Source: a virus. From it: DNA of 44,143 bases. The position numbers and the translations under genes are program-made. The notes under the pieces are model-generated. The model made no database searches. It saw only the letters and a list, made by a program, of their open reading frames with translations, and was not told the origin of the DNA. Each line of letters opens with the position of its first letter. The first letter of the stretch is position 1. Positions 32,047 to 44,143 of the stretch are shown here, one piece after another. The stretch is taken from positions 1 through 44,143 of IMG/VR virus record IMGVR_UViG_3300031951_000346; one strand, 5' to 3'.

Positions 32047-32408
32047 CCACTATCACTATCATCTGGGCAGCCATCTTCGGCGCACTGGTCAATAGAGCGC
32101 GGGGACATGACTGGGGCATCAGCACGCAGTTTAATCGCATCCTGTTTGGCGTTGCCTGGGGCTTGACCATTGGCGCTGCCGGGTTCCCGTTCTGGCCTCT
32201 ATTCATCGTCTCCGGCTGGCTGTCGTGCATATTCGGCCATGGCGCACATCAGCGGATGCACAAGCAAGTATATGGCCAGCAGTTCGATCACACGGAAAAA
32301 CTGACCCGCTGGCTGCCGCATGTGGCCGGGCCGTGGCGTGATGGCTGGGCGACGGTTGTGCTTGTTTTCTATGATGGTGAACTGGTTTACAGCCATAAAG
32401 CTGTTTGA
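32043..32408 (+). CDS. Membrane protein of the lysis cluster, C-terminus replaced by antisense of hsdR
   Basis: The coupled start ATG 32043 gives 121 residues. Two to three hydrophobic stretches are visible (ITIIWAAIFGALVNRARGHD, then ILFGVAWGLTIGAAGFPFWP, then LFIVSGWLSCIFGHGAHQ). A position after the spanins suggests a lysis function such as a holin, but the sequence is not of a known holin class. From about residue 102 (base 32346) the frame runs antisense through the hsdR fragment, so the last 20 residues (ATVVLVFYDGELVYSHKAV) are foreign and the native C-terminus is lost. Whether the hybrid works is unknown. Confidence 0.6.
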   Translation: MTTITIIWAAIFGALVNRARGHDWGISTQFNRILFGVAWGLTIGAAGFPFWPLFIVSGWLSCIFGHGAHQRMHKQVYGQQFDHTEKLTRWLPHVAGPWRDGWATVVLVFYDGELVYSHKAV

Positions 32409-32792
32409 TTTTGGATTATCAAAATCCACCAGCCACACTTTGTCACCCGCAATGCTTCCATCAGGACGTGTATATTCTACATCTACCCCATCCACCAACA
32501 AACGATGGAATAGACGGTTATCTTCGATCATCTCAGGTGCGGCAGATCGTGTTGCTTTACGGAACGCGTCATCAATGGCTTCGCTCGGTATTTTTGGGTT
32601 AATCCGCGCAAGAGCCGAGCGCAGCTCATCCTCAAGCACAACTTGCGAATAATCCTCTGCGCCCGTAAGCGGATTGATACGCGGCAAGGTGCTGCCGTGG
32701 CTGTAGCTATAGTCTAGCTCCTGAAGCCATTCCAATGCAGCTTGTTCAACTACGTCTTCATTAAAATTGGTCACATTTTCCCTTTTACTCAT
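32199..32792 (-). pseudogene. hsdR: Truncated type I restriction subunit HsdR (N-terminal 149 residues)
   Basis: The frame starts ATG at 32792, overlapping the stop of the DUF2326 gene by eight bases. Residues 1-149 follow the HsdR N-terminus: EQAALEWLQELDYSYSHGST, YSQVVLEDELRSALARINP, LFHRLLVDGVDVEYTRPDGS and FMAVNQFTIIENKHNRRP. In intact proteins this continues into the nuclease strand with an ExK motif, which is absent. The homology stops near 32346, and the last 48 residues are antisense to the phage membrane protein. The helicase motor and nuclease are lost, so this fragment cannot restrict DNA. A residual regulatory or decoy role is possible but unproven. Confidence 0.85.
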
Positions 32793-34518
32793 TGAACCTA
32801 AATCCCATAAGGCTGTCTTTTGGGTCTTGGTCTTTAAGTGTTAAACGAATAAATCTATTAACATCGAACTCGCCACTGAAATCATCCCTAGGAAGTGCGT
32901 CTGAGTTAAAGGCACAAATATATTGGAAACCACTTTCACATGCTTTCCGATGTGCATGCTCTAAAGCCTGTGCGGTTTGTCTAGAGTCTACCCCATCAAA
33001 GATGGTACTATCATGTACTAAAAAATTAATCAGACCGCGTTTTGCAAACAAATTAACTAACATGAGGTCATAGCAAAAGATTTTCATTTTACCGACGCCT
33101 TCGCTACTACTGCGGGGTATCTCAACATCAAAACTATAGCCGTTGTCCGATACGTTAATTATTAGGTTGCCAGACTCGTTATAAAGAGCTTGTGAATTTT
33201 CATTGAAGCCAGCAACAGCCTTTTCCCATTCGGTTCGTGATTGTTCATAATCTCTCTGGAGCTTGGTTTCTAATTCAATTTTTTCAGCCTTAATTTCCTT
33301 CTTCCGTGTGGACATCTCTTGGATATCTGAAATCCGTTGACGTATTTCTTCGAGCTTTGCTTTTTTCTCCAAAAGACGCTCCTGAAGCACCATGAATTCC
33401 TCTAATGCTCCATGCGTACTAAGCACAGACATCAACTCTGCCCGCTTTGTAGTTTCCGATTTTACAATCCGATCATTCTCTGAGATTTGGTTCTTAAGCT
33501 CTTCGATCTCAGCTTGCAAAAAATGCCTCCTATTTTGCACTATTTCATTATGAAATTTCTTGGCTTCTGCGAGCGTTTTTTTAACCGTATCACCAAAGGT
33601 CAGTCCTGCTTCCTGATAAAGAATCTCAACGGCAGAGGAATCTGGAGCTTGCTCGGAGTGAACAGAATCCTGATAACGTTCTAGCTTCCTACGCAGCATA
33701 AGATTTTTATTGGATGCATCGTGAATATTACGAGTTAGCGTGTTTGCCTGCTCTTGGATTTGCTGATATTGGGGGTGCACTTTAAATTCAGAAAGAGCGG
33801 ATTTTTCTTTATCAAATTCTATCTGCAATCTTACGCGTTCTGCTTCAAGTTCGCCTTTGGAGGATACTATCCCGGTTTTCACCGCTGCATTAAGAGAGAT
33901 TACGGCCTTATTTTTATCTTTTATTTCCTGTACATCAGCGGCATGATCCCAATTTAATCCTAGAAGAAATGCATTATGCACCTGTGAGTTCCAAGCGGGC
34001 TGCCCTCTAAAGTAGCTAAAGGGCGTACTGTAAGCATCAACGCCACTTCTTACAAAATAAGAAATCAAATTTCTAAAGGAAGGAGCGTATTTTGTACGGC
34101 TAATGCTTGAAAGTCCAAAGAGGCAGATTCCTAGTAATTTTTTCCAGTCTACAGCTTTATAAAATTCAAACCCATCCTCTTGGTCTTTTTCTGGTGCGAA
34201 TGGTAGCTTGGTTAAGTTTCCTTGAACTTTAATAATCCCATGATTTCCAATGCTTCTTGCTGCGGTAATGCGTTCACCAAAGAGATCCAATTCAATATAA
34301 AAGATCCAATTTTTTATTGTTTCTAAAGGCAGGATTTTTTTATTTGAATCTGCCCCTAAGCAAAAATGGATGATATTAATTAGACTAGTCTTTCCCAGCC
34401 CATTTCTTGAATCTTTCTTATCAGACTCGCTTTTTTTATCAGCCAATATAATGTTTAAACCGCTCTGAAATTCAACGGCTTTGAACCTAGGGTCACTTGC
34501 ATATATGCGGTAAATCAT
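32785..34518 (-). CDS. ABC-3C system ATPase with DUF2326 domain
   Basis: This 577-residue protein is an SMC/ABC-type ATPase. Walker A is RNGLGKTSL at residues 38-46. A central coiled coil (about residues 190-430) includes KGELEAERVRLQIEFDKEKS and ERLLEKKAKLEEIRQRISDI. The C-terminal DUF2326-type region holds GVGKMKIFCYDLMLVNLFAK and the LVHDSTIFDGVDSRQ motif at about residues 500-514. Families of this kind are the ATPase of ABC-three-component systems, predicted bacterial anti-phage systems, often near restriction genes. It overlaps the middle-component gene by four bases and hsdR by eight. No third (effector) gene is present. Its codon use and AT-rich sequence are unlike the flanking phage genes. 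Confidence 0.85.
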   Translation of the reverse strand: MIYRIYASDPRFKAVEFQSGLNIILADKKSESDKKDSRNGLGKTSLINIIHFCLGADSNKKILPLETIKNWIFYIELDLFGERITAARSIGNHGIIKVQGNLTKLPFAPEKDQEDGFEFYKAVDWKKLLGICLFGLSSISRTKYAPSFRNLISYFVRSGVDAYSTPFSYFRGQPAWNSQVHNAFLLGLNWDHAADVQEIKDKNKAVISLNAAVKTGIVSSKGELEAERVRLQIEFDKEKSALSEFKVHPQYQQIQEQANTLTRNIHDASNKNLMLRRKLERYQDSVHSEQAPDSSAVEILYQEAGLTFGDTVKKTLAEAKKFHNEIVQNRRHFLQAEIEELKNQISENDRIVKSETTKRAELMSVLSTHGALEEFMVLQERLLEKKAKLEEIRQRISDIQEMSTRKKEIKAEKIELETKLQRDYEQSRTEWEKAVAGFNENSQALYNESGNLIINVSDNGYSFDVEIPRSSSEGVGKMKIFCYDLMLVNLFAKRGLINFLVHDSTIFDGVDSRQTAQALEHAHRKACESGFQYICAFNSDALPRDDFSGEFDVNRFIRLTLKDQDPKDSLMGFRFNE

Positions 34519-34742
34519 GCTGCTGCCCTCACTATTTTATCGCTTCTAGTTTCAACGAGTCCCAGCAGAAACAGTAAGTCTAAGCCCAGCACAAATCTTT
34601 CAAAGTTTCCAACATTCGAAGCGGATTTCACCTCATCCCATAGACCAGATAAGGTTTTTTCTACGGACAGGTGTTTTAATAACAACGAACCGACGCCGAT
34701 AAGTGCTTCATGTTCACGAAGGTATTTGTTTGGAAGAATCAT
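34515..34742 (-). CDS. ABC-3C middle component, MC6-like
   Basis: This 75-residue protein overlaps the ATPase start (ATGA). The pattern ILPNKYLREHEALIGVGSLL, LSGLWDEVKSA and NFERFVLGLDLLFLLGLVET fits the small winged-helix middle component of ABC-three-component systems, best the MC6 type, which starts with LPTKHxxxExSLxGxG and ends with a helix like FVLALDLLYxLG. In these systems the middle component links the ATPase to a toxic effector. Here no effector follows or precedes it, so it may have lost its partner or use another. The start follows GAGGTG. Confidence 0.8.
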   Translation of the reverse strand: MILPNKYLREHEALIGVGSLLLKHLSVEKTLSGLWDEVKSASNVGNFERFVLGLDLLFLLGLVETRSDKIVRAAA

Positions 34743-35675: not shown

Positions 35676-36071
35676 CTATCCTTTCCTCTGTTGTGTTTTG
35701 TAATAACCCGCCTCGATGTGCTTATCACACCAGCGAGGCTTTCTTCTTCTGTGCATAGCCGCCTCATTGCAAAAATGAAACCCGGCAATCTTGGGGTCGC
35801 CGATTGGCCAGCAACATTTCTCAACATCCAGCGCCATGATGGCCCGTTCTGCCGGTGTGCGCCTGTCATTCCTGCGCGGCCTTACGGCGGCAGTCCTACG
35901 ATGCAACACTTGCATGGATGGGCGCTTTTCCAATAGCCCCGCATCCATGGCACGTTTCCTGACACCGCACACCGCGTTTTTGGTAACGCCAACAATCTTG
36001 GCAATGGCTGTCGTTTTCATTGTGGCGTCCTGTGACAACTCAATGACCTGTTTGCGCTGTTCGGGTGTCAT
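35676..36071 (-). CDS. GcrA-like cell-cycle regulator homologue
   Basis: ATG 36071 overlaps the stop of the small membrane gene upstream (ATGA), giving 131 residues; an ATG 15 bases earlier is possible. The N-terminus has a GcrA-type HTH (EQRKQVIELSQDATMKTTAI, then AKIVGVTKNAVCGVRKRA). After a basic linker, the C-terminus has the GcrA signature CCWPIGDPKIAGFHFC, then RRRKPRWCDKHIEAGYY. GcrA of Caulobacter relatives binds sigma70 and promoters carrying methylated GANTC. This homologue could redirect host RNA polymerase or compete with host GcrA. A second homologue lies at 38003-38596. Confidence 0.82.
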   Translation of the reverse strand: MTPEQRKQVIELSQDATMKTTAIAKIVGVTKNAVCGVRKRAMDAGLLEKRPSMQVLHRRTAAVRPRRNDRRTPAERAIMALDVEKCCWPIGDPKIAGFHFCNEAAMHRRRKPRWCDKHIEAGYYKTQQRKG

Positions 36072-36178
36072 GATGCCATTTTCCATAATATTGCTATCAG
36101 CACCCCGACCAAAATTGCCAGCGCATCACGCCATGGCGTTGCTGGGGCGTTGTGATCTTGGCGCTCATAGCCGTTCAT
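36068..36178 (-). CDS. Tiny single-span membrane protein
   Basis: This 36-residue frame starts at ATG 36178, overlapping the GH18-like gene's stop, and its own stop overlaps the GcrA-like start (ATGA at both ends). It has a polar N-terminus (NGYERQDHNAPATPWRD) and one membrane span (ALAILVGVLIAILW). The double coupling is the main support. Small membrane peptides of this kind are common in phage early operons. The function is unknown. Confidence 0.5.
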   Translation of the reverse strand: MNGYERQDHNAPATPWRDALAILVGVLIAILWKMAS

Positions 36179-37766: not shown

Positions 37767-38018
37767 TCATTTATCCTTTGCTGTTACAAACCGTGCCCGT
37801 GGGAACTCGATCACGTTCTCACCGGCCTCACTGATGTCGATGGCCTCTTGTAAAGCCAGCGGGATTTTCTCTTGATTGGCCGCCTCAATAAAGGCATCAT
37901 TCAGGCGCTCAAATATGGCATCAAACACACCACGGTCAATCGGTATGGTGTCGCTGCCTAATTTCCCGATGCGCTCAAGGTCATCAAGAAGACCCGATAG
38001 TGTCAAGGCGATGGACAT
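37767..38018 (-). CDS. Small acidic protein of unknown function
   Basis: This 83-residue protein overlaps the GcrA-like gene by 16 bases and ends one base before the ligase start. It is helical and acidic (ALTLSGLLDDLERIGKLGSD, then FDAIFERLNDAFIEAANQEK), with a short basic end. No family is recognised. It sits between a regulator and an RNA ligase and is probably co-expressed with both. Confidence 0.55.
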   Translation of the reverse strand: MSIALTLSGLLDDLERIGKLGSDTIPIDRGVFDAIFERLNDAFIEAANQEKIPLALQEAIDISEAGENVIEFPRARFVTAKDK

Positions 38019-38596
38019 GGCGTAACCCCCTCTGGTGGCTGTGGCAATCTGTAAGCTCTTTTGTAATGCTTCTCGCAGTAAGGCAGTTTACCGTCCCGAT
38101 CCCTGCGGCAGAACCGAAAACCAGCTTTCCCCGGGTGCCCCACCGGCCAGCGGCATTGCTCAGTGGTAAGCGCCATAACAGCAGCCAAGGTATCCGGCAT
38201 ATACCGCTCACCCTTTGGCTCGGGGATTTTGTAAACAGGCTTTGTTTTACCCTTGTAAATAGGCTTGGGCTTTGGTTGCGGTGGACGTGAAGCAAGCTTC
38301 TGCCGCCCAAGCCCCAGCAGTCGCAACTTATTACGAACCCCCTGCGGTGATTTTCCGACAATGGCGGCAATCTGGTCTGACGTCATGCCGTTGCCGTGCA
38401 GTGCTATGATCTTATCAACCATCTCCTTAGGAAAAGCCGGGCTGTTTTTCTCTTTTTTGAGCTTGAGTATTCGTATGCGTTTTTTAACAGAGTCCAAAGA
38501 CCGCCCAAGCTTTTCCGCTATCTGCCGATTGGTTAGATTGCCCCGGCTTTGTTTGATGATCTGATCCTCAGCCGGGGTAAATGGGTTGTTGCTCAC
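38003..38596 (-). CDS. GcrA-like regulator with extra N-terminal HTH
   Basis: This 197-residue protein has three parts. Residues 5-47 form a Myb/SANT-like HTH (FTPAEDQIIKQSRGNLTNRQ, then IAEKLGRSLDSVKKRIR). Residues 53-98 form a GcrA-type HTH (EMVDKIIALHGNGMTSDQIA, then AIVGKSPQGVRNKLRLLGL). After a Pro/Lys linker, residues 147-183 carry the GcrA signature CRWPVGHPGKAGFRFC, then KLPYCEKHYKRAY. The first HTH is an extra domain compared with host GcrA of about 170 residues. It probably targets host or phage promoters through sigma70 and DNA. It overlaps the first gene of the operon by four bases. Confidence 0.8.
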   Translation of the reverse strand: MSNNPFTPAEDQIIKQSRGNLTNRQIAEKLGRSLDSVKKRIRILKLKKEKNSPAFPKEMVDKIIALHGNGMTSDQIAAIVGKSPQGVRNKLRLLGLGRQKLASRPPQPKPKPIYKGKTKPVYKIPEPKGERYMPDTLAAVMALTTEQCRWPVGHPGKAGFRFCRRDRDGKLPYCEKHYKRAYRLPQPPEGVTPCPSP

Positions 38597-38931
38597 CGTG
38601 GCCCCCAGTAATATTCGTTCAAGCTTTTGCGCACCAGGAAATCTGCCATCGTCTCAGGTTCGTCTCCCTCAAACTTGGCAAACACCATTGCCTCGGTAAT
38701 GCCGCTTCTTTTCAGGACGGTTTCAACATCCAAAACGCCTGTCTTGACGTTTATGGTGACGTTATCAATCATCAGCTCGCCCTGATAACGATAGCCCGTA
38801 AAAACCAGTTCAAGGCTGCAAAAATTAGCTTCTGGATCATTTGTCAAAACCCATGTTGCCGGGTCATCGCACGTGTCCACGGGCTCGTTAATCAAAATGT
38901 CGATCTCGAATGATGCTGTTAAGTCAGTCAT
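38593..38931 (-). CDS. First gene of the leftward operon, unknown protein
   Basis: This 112-residue protein starts ATG at 38931 after GGGAG and lies directly behind the leftward promoter at 38958-38986. It is acidic and beta-rich in the first two thirds (CSLELVFTGYRYQGELMIDN, then VTINVKTGVLDVE) and helical at the end (ETMADFLVRKSLNEYYW). First genes of phage early operons are often host-takeover or anti-host factors, but I can only infer that here. No family is recognised. Confidence 0.6.
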   Translation of the reverse strand: MTDLTASFEIDILINEPVDTCDDPATWVLTNDPEANFCSLELVFTGYRYQGELMIDNVTINVKTGVLDVETVLKRSGITEAMVFAKFEGDEPETMADFLVRKSLNEYYWGPR

Positions 38932-38957: not shown

Positions 38958-38986
38958 ATTAAACACAACAAATTTGTTTAGGTCAA
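38958..38986 (-). promoter_or_regulatory. Leftward promoter with palindromic operator in the spacer
   Basis: On the minus strand TTGACC (38986-38981), a 17-base spacer and TTTAAT (38963-38958) form a good sigma70 promoter. The perfect palindrome AACAAATTTGTT (38967-38978) fills most of the spacer. A protein bound there would block RNA polymerase. The divergent promoter has a sister palindrome. Confidence 0.7.
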
Positions 38987-38994
38987 CAGGAATA

Positions 38995-39023
38995 TTGACA
39001 AACTCAACAATATTGTTCATGTT
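38995..39023 (+). promoter_or_regulatory. Rightward promoter of the HTH gene with palindromic operator in the spacer
   Basis: TTGACA (38995-39000), a 17-base spacer and CATGTT (39018-39023) form the promoter. The palindrome AACAATATTGTT (39006-39017) lies inside the spacer. Transcription would start near 39030, which is the ATG of the HTH gene, so the message may be leaderless. The two palindrome centres are 39 bp apart. Confidence 0.7.
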
Positions 39024-39029
39024 AGGGGC

Positions 39030-39281
39030 ATGACAAACATTTTTGCACGGCTTTTAGAGGCCAGCCCCAACGTAAAAAGATTATCTGTTGACATCGGCAT
39101 CGGCAGGAACCGGCTGTATGCGCTCGCCAGTGGCAAATCAGAGCTTCGGGCCAGTGACTGGGAAATTGCCAAAGCCGCACAGGCTATTTACCTGTGGGAG
39201 CGGTATTTGAGAGATATGAAACACCCGCCGGATATTGCTACTGAGGATTTAGAGCTGTATCGGCGGGAGTTGGGGCTTTAA
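39030..39281 (+). CDS. Cro/CI-like HTH regulator
   Basis: This 83-residue protein is the only rightward gene between 32.4 and 44.1 kb. Residues 14-45 form a Cro/CI-type HTH (VKRLSVDIGIGRNRLYALAS, then GKSELRASDWEIAKA). The rest is helical (AIYLWERYLRDMKHPPD) and may dimerise. Its ATG lies at the expected transcription start, with no room for a Shine-Dalgarno, so it is probably translated from a leaderless message. Palindromes in its own promoter and in the divergent promoter suggest it represses both, as in a phage switch. No integrase is in the window, so lysogeny is unproven. Confidence 0.75.
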   Translation: MTNIFARLLEASPNVKRLSVDIGIGRNRLYALASGKSELRASDWEIAKAAQAIYLWERYLRDMKHPPDIATEDLELYRRELGL

Positions 39282-39297: not shown

Positions 39298-39639
39298 TTA
39301 AAACCAAGTGGCCACGTTAAAAAACATTCGGCGCTTAGGTTTTGGTTCGCGCTCACTCCAGTCTGGCACATGAAGCTGACCACGATATGGTTGCATATCA
39401 AGCGCGACAGCTTTTCCATTTCTCTCAATTTTGATTATATCAAGGTTGTCTGGCATCCCGCCCCGCGAATTAAGAATATTGTCAAAATTATTATCATGAG
39501 CGCTGTATTCTGGCCCTTGCCACACCAGTCTTGTGTAAGAAAAATGCTCTCGATACTCGTCTGATATAACAAGCACATCTCCGCGCCGTAACAACCCATC
39601 ACAAATAAACTTTTTCACTGTTGGTAGCACTTCAGTCAT
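39298..39639 (-). CDS. Member 3 of the PTVPEFL...RIERNG paralogous family
   Basis: ATG 39639 follows an AGGA site, giving 113 residues; a start further upstream lies inside the preceding gene. The core is LPTVKKFICDGLLRRGDVLV, then SDEYREHFSYTRLVWQGPEY, NNFDNILNSRGGMPDNLDII and KIERNGKAVALDMQPYRG. The ending differs from the other members by a 20-residue extension rich in basic residues. It overlaps the next member by eight bases, a tandem duplication. The function is unknown. Confidence 0.6.
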   Translation of the reverse strand: MTEVLPTVKKFICDGLLRRGDVLVISDEYREHFSYTRLVWQGPEYSAHDNNFDNILNSRGGMPDNLDIIKIERNGKAVALDMQPYRGQLHVPDWSEREPKPKRRMFFNVATWF

Positions 39640-39934
39640 TGTATTCCTGCCCCTTTGCAACCACCTTGCCATTTCGCTCAATGCGGATTATGTGGGTCGA
39701 TAATTTGCATCCATTTCTAGAAAAAAGATACCAGCCTCTTTCTGAAAAATTACCAAAATCAGTTGTTTCAATTGGGTGGTTCTTGTATAAGCCTCGCTCT
39801 GTGAATTCTGTTTGCCCAAAGCGATTCAAAACCAGAATATCCCCTCTTTGCACACCATTACGCAAAAACTCCGGCACCGTTGGCAGCCGTGACTGCTTGC
39901 GCTGGGATAGGTGTTTTAGATATTGGATCATCAC
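39632..39934 (-). CDS. Member 4 of the PTVPEFL...RIERNG paralogous family
   Basis: This 100-residue protein starts ATG at 39934, overlapping the stop of the dUTPase fusion (ATGA). The core is clean: LPTVPEFLRNGVQRGDILVL, then NRFGQTEFTERGLYKNHPIE, TTDFGNFSERGWYLFSRNG and THIIRIERNGKVVAKGQEYN. This is the shortest full member and shows the family best. Basic residues are frequent at the start (KHLSQRKQSR). The function is unknown; nucleic-acid binding is possible given the Arg/Asn-rich end but unproven. Confidence 0.65.
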   Translation of the reverse strand: MMIQYLKHLSQRKQSRLPTVPEFLRNGVQRGDILVLNRFGQTEFTERGLYKNHPIETTDFGNFSERGWYLFSRNGCKLSTHIIRIERNGKVVAKGQEYND

Positions 39935-40680
39935 GCCACCCCCGTCGAGCCAAAGCCGCCCGTTCGTTCTGTTTCGTCAAGTTCATCGACCTGTTCAAGC
40001 ACAACTTCTGGCAGTTTGATGATTTTCATCTGGGCGATGCGGTCGTCAGGCTCAACAATAAAGTCACGGATGCCGCTGTTGTATAGAATAACGCCAATCT
40101 CGCCGCGATAATCACTATCAATCAGGCCGGGGCTGTTGGTGATGGTGATCCCATACTTCAACGCAAGGCCGGATCGTGGTTGTATCTCGCCAGCGTATCC
40201 GGCGGGAATTGCCATTGCCAAGCCGGTCTTGATTAGACGTTGCTCCCCCGGCGGTATCAAGTCACCCTCCAAAGCCGCCAGGTCAAAAGCCGCACTGCCA
40301 GCCGTGGCGTATTGCGGCATCTTGGCGCGTGGGTCTAAGATTTTGACTTTTACGGTGGGGGTCATTATCGATGGTTTGTTCTCAAGATCATTAAGGCAGT
40401 TGTTAACCATTGTGATGATGTCCTCGTCCCATCTGAGTAAATGATCGACTCGCGCAATGCTACTCATGATCGTGGTGTGATTGCGGCCTGACAGCGCCTT
40501 GGCAATCCGTGTTAGAGAATACCCTATTTTCCGGTAGGCAATCCAGCACGCAATGTGCCTAGCTTCCGAAACGCATTTTGTCCGGTTTCGTTCAACAATC
40601 AGTGTTTTGTCAATGCCGGTGTTTTGAGCCACCACCGACAAAATCGTGTCAAACTTCCTGCGCGGCGCGTGGGTTGTCAT
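39931..40680 (-). CDS. dut: DnaA domain IV fused to dUTPase
   Basis: This 249-residue protein has two parts. Residues 25-82 match the DNA-binding domain IV of DnaA (ARHIACWIAYRKIGYSLTRI, then AKALSGRNHTTIMSSIARV), including the GRNHTT signature. Residues 106-249 are a complete trimeric-type dUTPase with all five motifs: AGSAAFDL, PRSGLA, GLIDSDYRGEIG, RIAQMKI and RTGGFGSTG. The dUTPase keeps uracil out of DNA and makes dUMP. No ribosome-binding site precedes M106 (ATG 40365), so a fused protein is the likely product. The DnaA part could bind DnaA boxes at host or phage origins. I know of no such fusion as a named family. Confidence 0.85.
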   Translation of the reverse strand: MTTHAPRRKFDTILSVVAQNTGIDKTLIVERNRTKCVSEARHIACWIAYRKIGYSLTRIAKALSGRNHTTIMSSIARVDHLLRWDEDIITMVNNCLNDLENKPSIMTPTVKVKILDPRAKMPQYATAGSAAFDLAALEGDLIPPGEQRLIKTGLAMAIPAGYAGEIQPRSGLALKYGITITNSPGLIDSDYRGEIGVILYNSGIRDFIVEPDDRIAQMKIIKLPEVVLEQVDELDETERTGGFGSTGVA

Positions 40681-44002: not shown

Positions 44003-44143
44003 TCACCCCATCCCCAGCGCGTTCTTGTAAAGCTCGACCAATTGCTCTTGCTCTTGGCGGGTGGCTTTGTCCAGTTTGCGCAGTTTGATAATCTCGCGCA
44101 TAACTTTAACGATGTAGCCTTCACCCTTGGCCTCGGCGTAAAC
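44003..44143 (-). CDS. gapR: GapR-like (DUF2312) nucleoid protein, C-terminal part
   Basis: Only the last 46 residues are in the window; the gene runs off the right edge. VYAEAKGEGYIVKVMREIIK, then LRKLDKATRQEQEQLVELYK and the end NALGMG match the C-terminus of GapR/DUF2312 (EVFAEAKxxGFDxKxLRxxIxLRK, then a helix ending LYxxALGM). GapR is an alphaproteobacterial protein that binds overtwisted DNA ahead of replication forks and transcription. Phages of alphaproteobacteria often carry a copy, probably to handle their own DNA. The stop is part of the junction repeat. Confidence 0.85.
   Translation of the reverse strand, partial: VYAEAKGEGYIVKVMREIIKLRKLDKATRQEQEQLVELYKNALGMG

Follow-up and report, generated by a model that had tools for sequence, protein, structure and literature searches.

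Paired 12-bp palindromes within divergent predicted promoters of a phage, and the small protein that is their probable repressor

The 98-bp intergenic region between two divergent genes of the virus record IMGVR_UViG_3300031951_000346 (44,143 bases, analysed at full length and referred to here as the window) contains two perfect 12-bp palindromes, AACAAATTTGTT and AACAATATTGTT, each lying in the spacer of a predicted promoter. We propose, with a probability of about 0.68, that this is a phage repressor locus, in which the 83-aa protein encoded by the rightward gene binds both palindromes and represses its own gene together with the leftward operon. It is probable that the operator pair is real and well placed and that the regulator is a small repressor; control of this style is already known in phages, and the protein itself is new and unrelated. 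The features concerned are as follows.

38003–38596, minus strand: GcrA homologue (PF07750, E 6e-16), second gene of the leftward operon
38593–38931, minus strand: 112-aa protein without a family, first gene of the leftward operon; its structural model (pLDDT 41.5) is too poor for use
38958–38986, minus strand: predicted leftward promoter TTGACC-17-TTTAAT, rank 29 of 441,080 in a consensus-weight scan
38967–38978, no strand: AACAAATTTGTT, the palindrome on the left, a predicted operator between the -35 and -10 elements of the leftward promoter
38995–39023, plus strand: predicted rightward promoter TTGACA-17-CATGTT, rank 37 of 441,080 in the same scan
39006–39017, no strand: AACAATATTGTT, the palindrome on the right, a predicted operator between the -35 and -10 elements of the rightward promoter, abutting the -10 element
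39007–39036, minus strand: alternative predicted leftward placement TTGTCA-18-TATTGT, rank 32, with a similar score
39030–39281, plus strand: 83-aa predicted Cro/XRE-like helix-turn-helix protein (coding score and model)

The two palindromes have their outer ten bases in common and differ in the central two (AT versus TA), and their centres are 39 bp apart. The record has no exact AACAAWWTTGTT site besides these, and the overlapping identical contig IMGVR_UViG_3300032093_000450 contains the same two and no others. In both palindromes, 6 bp separate the centres of the ACAA/TTGT half-sites. Longer dyads overlap the palindromes at 38960–38980 and 38991–39014, and given these the true operator could exceed 12 bp. 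Neither AACAAATTTGTT nor AACAATATTGTT was found in the titles and abstract openings of the regulatory papers searched. Single palindromes are uninformative here: 10 perfect ones of at least 12 bp were counted in the window, which is not above the mean of 13.7 in 30 shuffles. The pair is a different matter. When 20,000 dinucleotide shuffles were made, 19 had at least two palindromes inside the 98-bp region, and 1 had two that agreed in their outer five bases. Across the whole window there is one pair of 12-bp palindromes that are identical at 10/12 positions or more and lie within 60 bp of each other, as against none in 100 whole-window shuffles. An extended direct repeat, AAAC-A/T-C before both palindromes, was also considered and set aside; the flank identity of 13/28 was reached in 670 of 20,000 shuffles, and the repeat is weak and partly owed to promoter elements.

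The consensus-weight scan, which is built on hexamer frequencies, covered 441,080 promoter placements in the window, and both palindromes lie wholly within the 17-bp spacers of the top-scoring placements, one per strand, in the region. The leftward promoter comprises a -35 element (TTGACC) at 38986–38981, a spacer at 38980–38964 and a -10 element (TTTAAT) at 38963–38958; the rightward promoter comprises a -35 element (TTGACA) at 38995–39000, a spacer at 39001–39017 and a -10 element (CATGTT) at 39018–39023. The sequence-only reading had placed a perfect palindrome in the 17-base spacer of each divergent promoter; its sequences and coordinates proved exact, and all four hexamers fall within its range of 38958–39023. 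Its description of the arrangement as a mirror image, however, is only approximate, the offsets from the -35 and to the -10 element being 2 and 3 bp on the left and 5 and 0 bp on the right. The promoter calls are predictions, because the rightward -10 element is weak (3/6 match to TATAAT) and the alternative leftward placement (TTGTCA at 39036–39031, TATTGT at 39012–39007) has its -10 element within the right palindrome; a stricter promoter scan listed neither the leftward (38958–38986) nor the rightward (38995–39023) promoter. With TATAAT-like spacing, rightward transcription would be predicted to begin at the ATG at 39030 or close to it, and the rightward mRNA may therefore be leaderless. 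GANTC sites, which would suggest a link to the host cell cycle, are absent from the intergenic region.

The 39030–39281 reading frame has a coding score of 0.147 per codon, the other five frames scoring from -0.13 to -0.38. It is the sole plus-strand gene amid minus-strand neighbours, divergent from 38593–38931 and convergent with 39298–39681. Its product matched nothing in NCBIfam, nor in Pfam with the cutoff relaxed to E ≤ 10; a single PHROG match was weak (E 0.083), a PF01381 profile search gave a match in neither the window record nor the overlapping contig, and by sequence (HTH_3/HTH_26-type profiles) the protein does not fall within the XRE/Cro-CI group. A single-sequence structural model of low confidence (pLDDT 61) places helices at residues 4–11, 15–22, 26–33, 43–62 and 71–81. 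Foldseek returned nothing for it at E ≤ 0.001. The low-confidence model aligned best to YdaS (Z 5.3, 2.6 Å over 57 residues), then to the restriction-modification control proteins C.BclI and C.AhdI (Z 4.4), Aca11 (Z 4.2) and 434 Cro (Z 3.7), with many XRE chains at Z 3.5–4.8, although Z values of such size can come from a common arrangement, for which reason the product is only probably a Cro/XRE-type helix-turn-helix protein.

No sequence kin of the 83-aa protein was found among the viral contigs, genome contigs, phages and plasmids searched, beyond the identical contig IMGVR_UViG_3300032093_000450 (100 % identity over 13,578 aligned bases), which is the only relative of the locus among the viral contigs; the genome contigs, phages and plasmids searched likewise contained none. 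Since no such relatives were found, there is no phylogenetic footprint for this locus. With other genes of the window as queries, the dUTPase matched two loci (L006 and L007), in the first of which the dUTPase has other genes around it, and the capsid protein matched three identical and three distant loci.

Exact pairs of the palindrome, 15–45 bp apart, were found in 116 genome stretches and 18 viral ones, the identical contig being among the latter. Next to such pairs and pointing outward from them are 159 ORFs, of which we scanned 100, representing 66 of 133 loci, against Pfam; the numerous copies of a single Bacteroides record were taken out by hand, as were overlapping ORFs of smaller size, and some of the loci represent the same virus (L015 and L025 have identical flanks). 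These ORFs gave TetR_N 6 times, HicA 5 times, HTH_3 3 times and ArsR-like HTH_20 3 times. The control consisted of 100 other ORFs of these loci, chosen as the longest per strand by a rule slightly unlike that of the flanking set; in it HTH_3 occurred twice, and TetR_N, HicA and HTH_20 were not among the 25 commonest families listed. HicA was confirmed singly at four loci with AACAAWWTTGTT pairs upstream of hicA (L017, L019, L026 and L104). In three related viral contigs (L023:267–329, L028:681–740 and L029:720–779) a AACAATATTGTT pair is intact and the interior is partly changed by substitutions and gaps; in two of the three, L028 and L029, a small winged-helix-turn-helix (HTH_39) gene adjoins the pair. 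Two further loci with the same 39-bp centre spacing (L040 and L136) carry ArsR-type genes in alphaproteobacterial genomes and were rejected as look-alikes and no kin. At L020:1–130, at a contig start, TTGACA is followed directly by AACAAATTTGTT in a promoter-like spacer, and a leftward ATG upstream is cut by the contig end; this too is a look-alike of the phage locus. Because the pairs adjoin TetR, HicAB, ArsR and winged-helix-turn-helix genes, the palindrome is a frequent operator form used by several helix-turn-helix families, a common operator shape and the mark of no single one; an operator is therefore favoured here, and the motif does not name its binder.

The same neighbours lend some weight to a reading in which the palindromes are operators of another protein, either a host repressor of the TetR-, ArsR- or HicB-like kind or another phage protein such as a second small helix-turn-helix protein, the 39030 product then being merely a regulated gene. 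The phage does have a second Cro-like gene (L008:5455–5652), but the divergent promoter region belonging to that gene contains other dyads and lacks AACAAWWTTGTT, and the phage's sole two copies of the palindrome sit at the 39030 gene's own promoter. We therefore regard another binder as unlikely. That one protein binds both sites, and that it is the 39030 product, had been put forward from the sequence alone; a single binder is indirectly supported by the rare shared motif, the divergent autoregulator layout, the helix-turn-helix-like model and the motif's neighbours elsewhere, and the identification with the 39030 product is retained as likely. Binding of both palindromes, with autorepression, is thus its most likely role.

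The sequence-only reading had also suggested that the two sites, being unlike at their centres, could be bound with unequal affinity; the switch would then be an ordered one, in which one promoter closes first. By analogy, such a switch would be plausible enough: ten outer bases are identical and the central two differ (AAATTT versus ATAT centres), and the 434 and P22 repressors are reported to sense indirectly central bases that they do not contact, these bases altering affinity and central A-tracts raising it (PMC3317979). The flanks of the two palindromes are also unlike each other, however, as is their placement in the promoters, and placement alone could alter repression. A third, middle operator (TCAACAGGAATATTG), which a lambda-like array would call for, was rejected, being matched in 12,197 of 20,000 shuffles in which the -35 boxes were kept, i.e. 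at chance level. The two-affinity switch appears unlikely; if the centres do differ in affinity, the locus would represent a minimal natural indirect-readout system, in which two promoters have the same ten contact bases. Chance resemblance of two palindromes in A+T-rich promoter DNA, with no binding protein, is very improbable: the lack of enrichment of 12-bp palindromes and the choice of the site from a 44-kb window would allow it, but the rarity of a comparable pair in both local and whole-window shuffles and the location of both palindromes within promoter spacers speak against it.

We return to the proposal that the 83-aa protein is the repressor. Made rightward from 39030, it would bind both palindromes as a dimer and, as each palindrome fills most of the gap between the -35 and -10 elements, the bound dimer would sterically exclude RNA polymerase. 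Occupation of the right site would result in autorepression of the 39030 gene, and occupation of the left site would turn off the leftward operon, i.e. the 112-aa gene, the GcrA homologue and the genes beyond. On a new infection, we infer, both promoters would be free and a burst of leftward gene expression would follow, until the repressor built up and both promoters closed. For a phage protein that is an orphan, the locus may offer a regulator–operator pair that is compact and testable; it also points to control of the phage GcrA homologue. It is quite improbable, on the other hand, that the protein represents a new family of tiny phage repressors without sequence kin in the sets searched, its leaderless transcript beginning next to its operator and its two palindromes, unlike only at the central step, serving to close its own gene and the GcrA operon in set order, so timing interference with the host cell cycle.

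By analogy with known systems, the 83-aa protein is best read as an autorepressor that would act in the manner of Cro, KorA or the Aca proteins. It would share with 434 Cro and 434 CI, the lambdoid XRE repressors, small size, a helix-turn-helix fold, divergent promoters, symmetric operators inside those promoters and possibly an indirect reading of the central bases. Unlike the lambdoid systems, with their three-site operator array, the phage locus has one operator per promoter, and the protein has no detectable homology and no partner repressor at the locus. A lambda-type pair of opposing CI and Cro repressors sharing a multi-site operator was not found, the leftward gene (38593–38931) having no match to any helix-turn-helix family and the middle site being at chance level. 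In 434 operators the half-sites are 10 bp apart, centre to centre; here they are closer, at 6 bp, which would be an unusual contact distance for a 434-type dimer. In the Aca systems, acr and aca genes form one operon with the aca gene downstream. A small phage helix-turn-helix protein that would curb an early burst of adjoining genes resembles the Aca autorepressors, and Aca11 is among the structural alignments of the low-confidence model; the 39030 regulator, however, is divergent from 38593–38931 rather than downstream of and cotranscribed with an acr gene, and no anti-CRISPR is known at the locus. The HicAB operators with HTH-type HicB resemble the present sites in the AACAAWWTTGTT pairs upstream of hicA noted above, but HicAB forms an operon whereas the phage genes are divergent, and neither 39030–39281 nor 38593–38931 matches the HicA or HicB families. 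KorA of IncP-1 plasmids is reported to recognize a 12-bp perfect palindrome, GTTTAGCTAAAC, overlapping a promoter element of its own gene (PMC2680271), and so has in common with the phage locus a 12-bp perfect palindrome at the promoter of the regulator's own gene; the KorA motif differs, overlaps the -10 element and acts with KorB, and no homology is shown.

The integrase (PF00589), resolvase (PF00239) and ParA-type AAA_31 (PF13614) families were each found in neither of the two records, both of which are fragments; the missing integrase may be a further difference from the lambdoid phages. A second, shorter GcrA-like protein is encoded at 35676–36086 (minus strand), and at 39931–40680 (minus strand) a DnaA C-terminal DNA-binding domain is fused to a dUTPase. 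A cluster at 32199–34742 (minus strand), comprising MC6 (the ABC-3C middle component), a DUF2326/CTD10 ATPase and HSDR_N, resembles a phage-borne ABC three-component defence system. The second small Cro-like gene (minus strand; HTH_26, E 7.8e-4) lies past the window end (window position 44143 corresponds to L008 position 12505) and is divergent from an AAA_24 gene and followed by a Prim-Pol primase gene; the intergenic region beside it (L008:5653–5793) is A+T-rich, with a GC content of 33 %, and contains other dyads.
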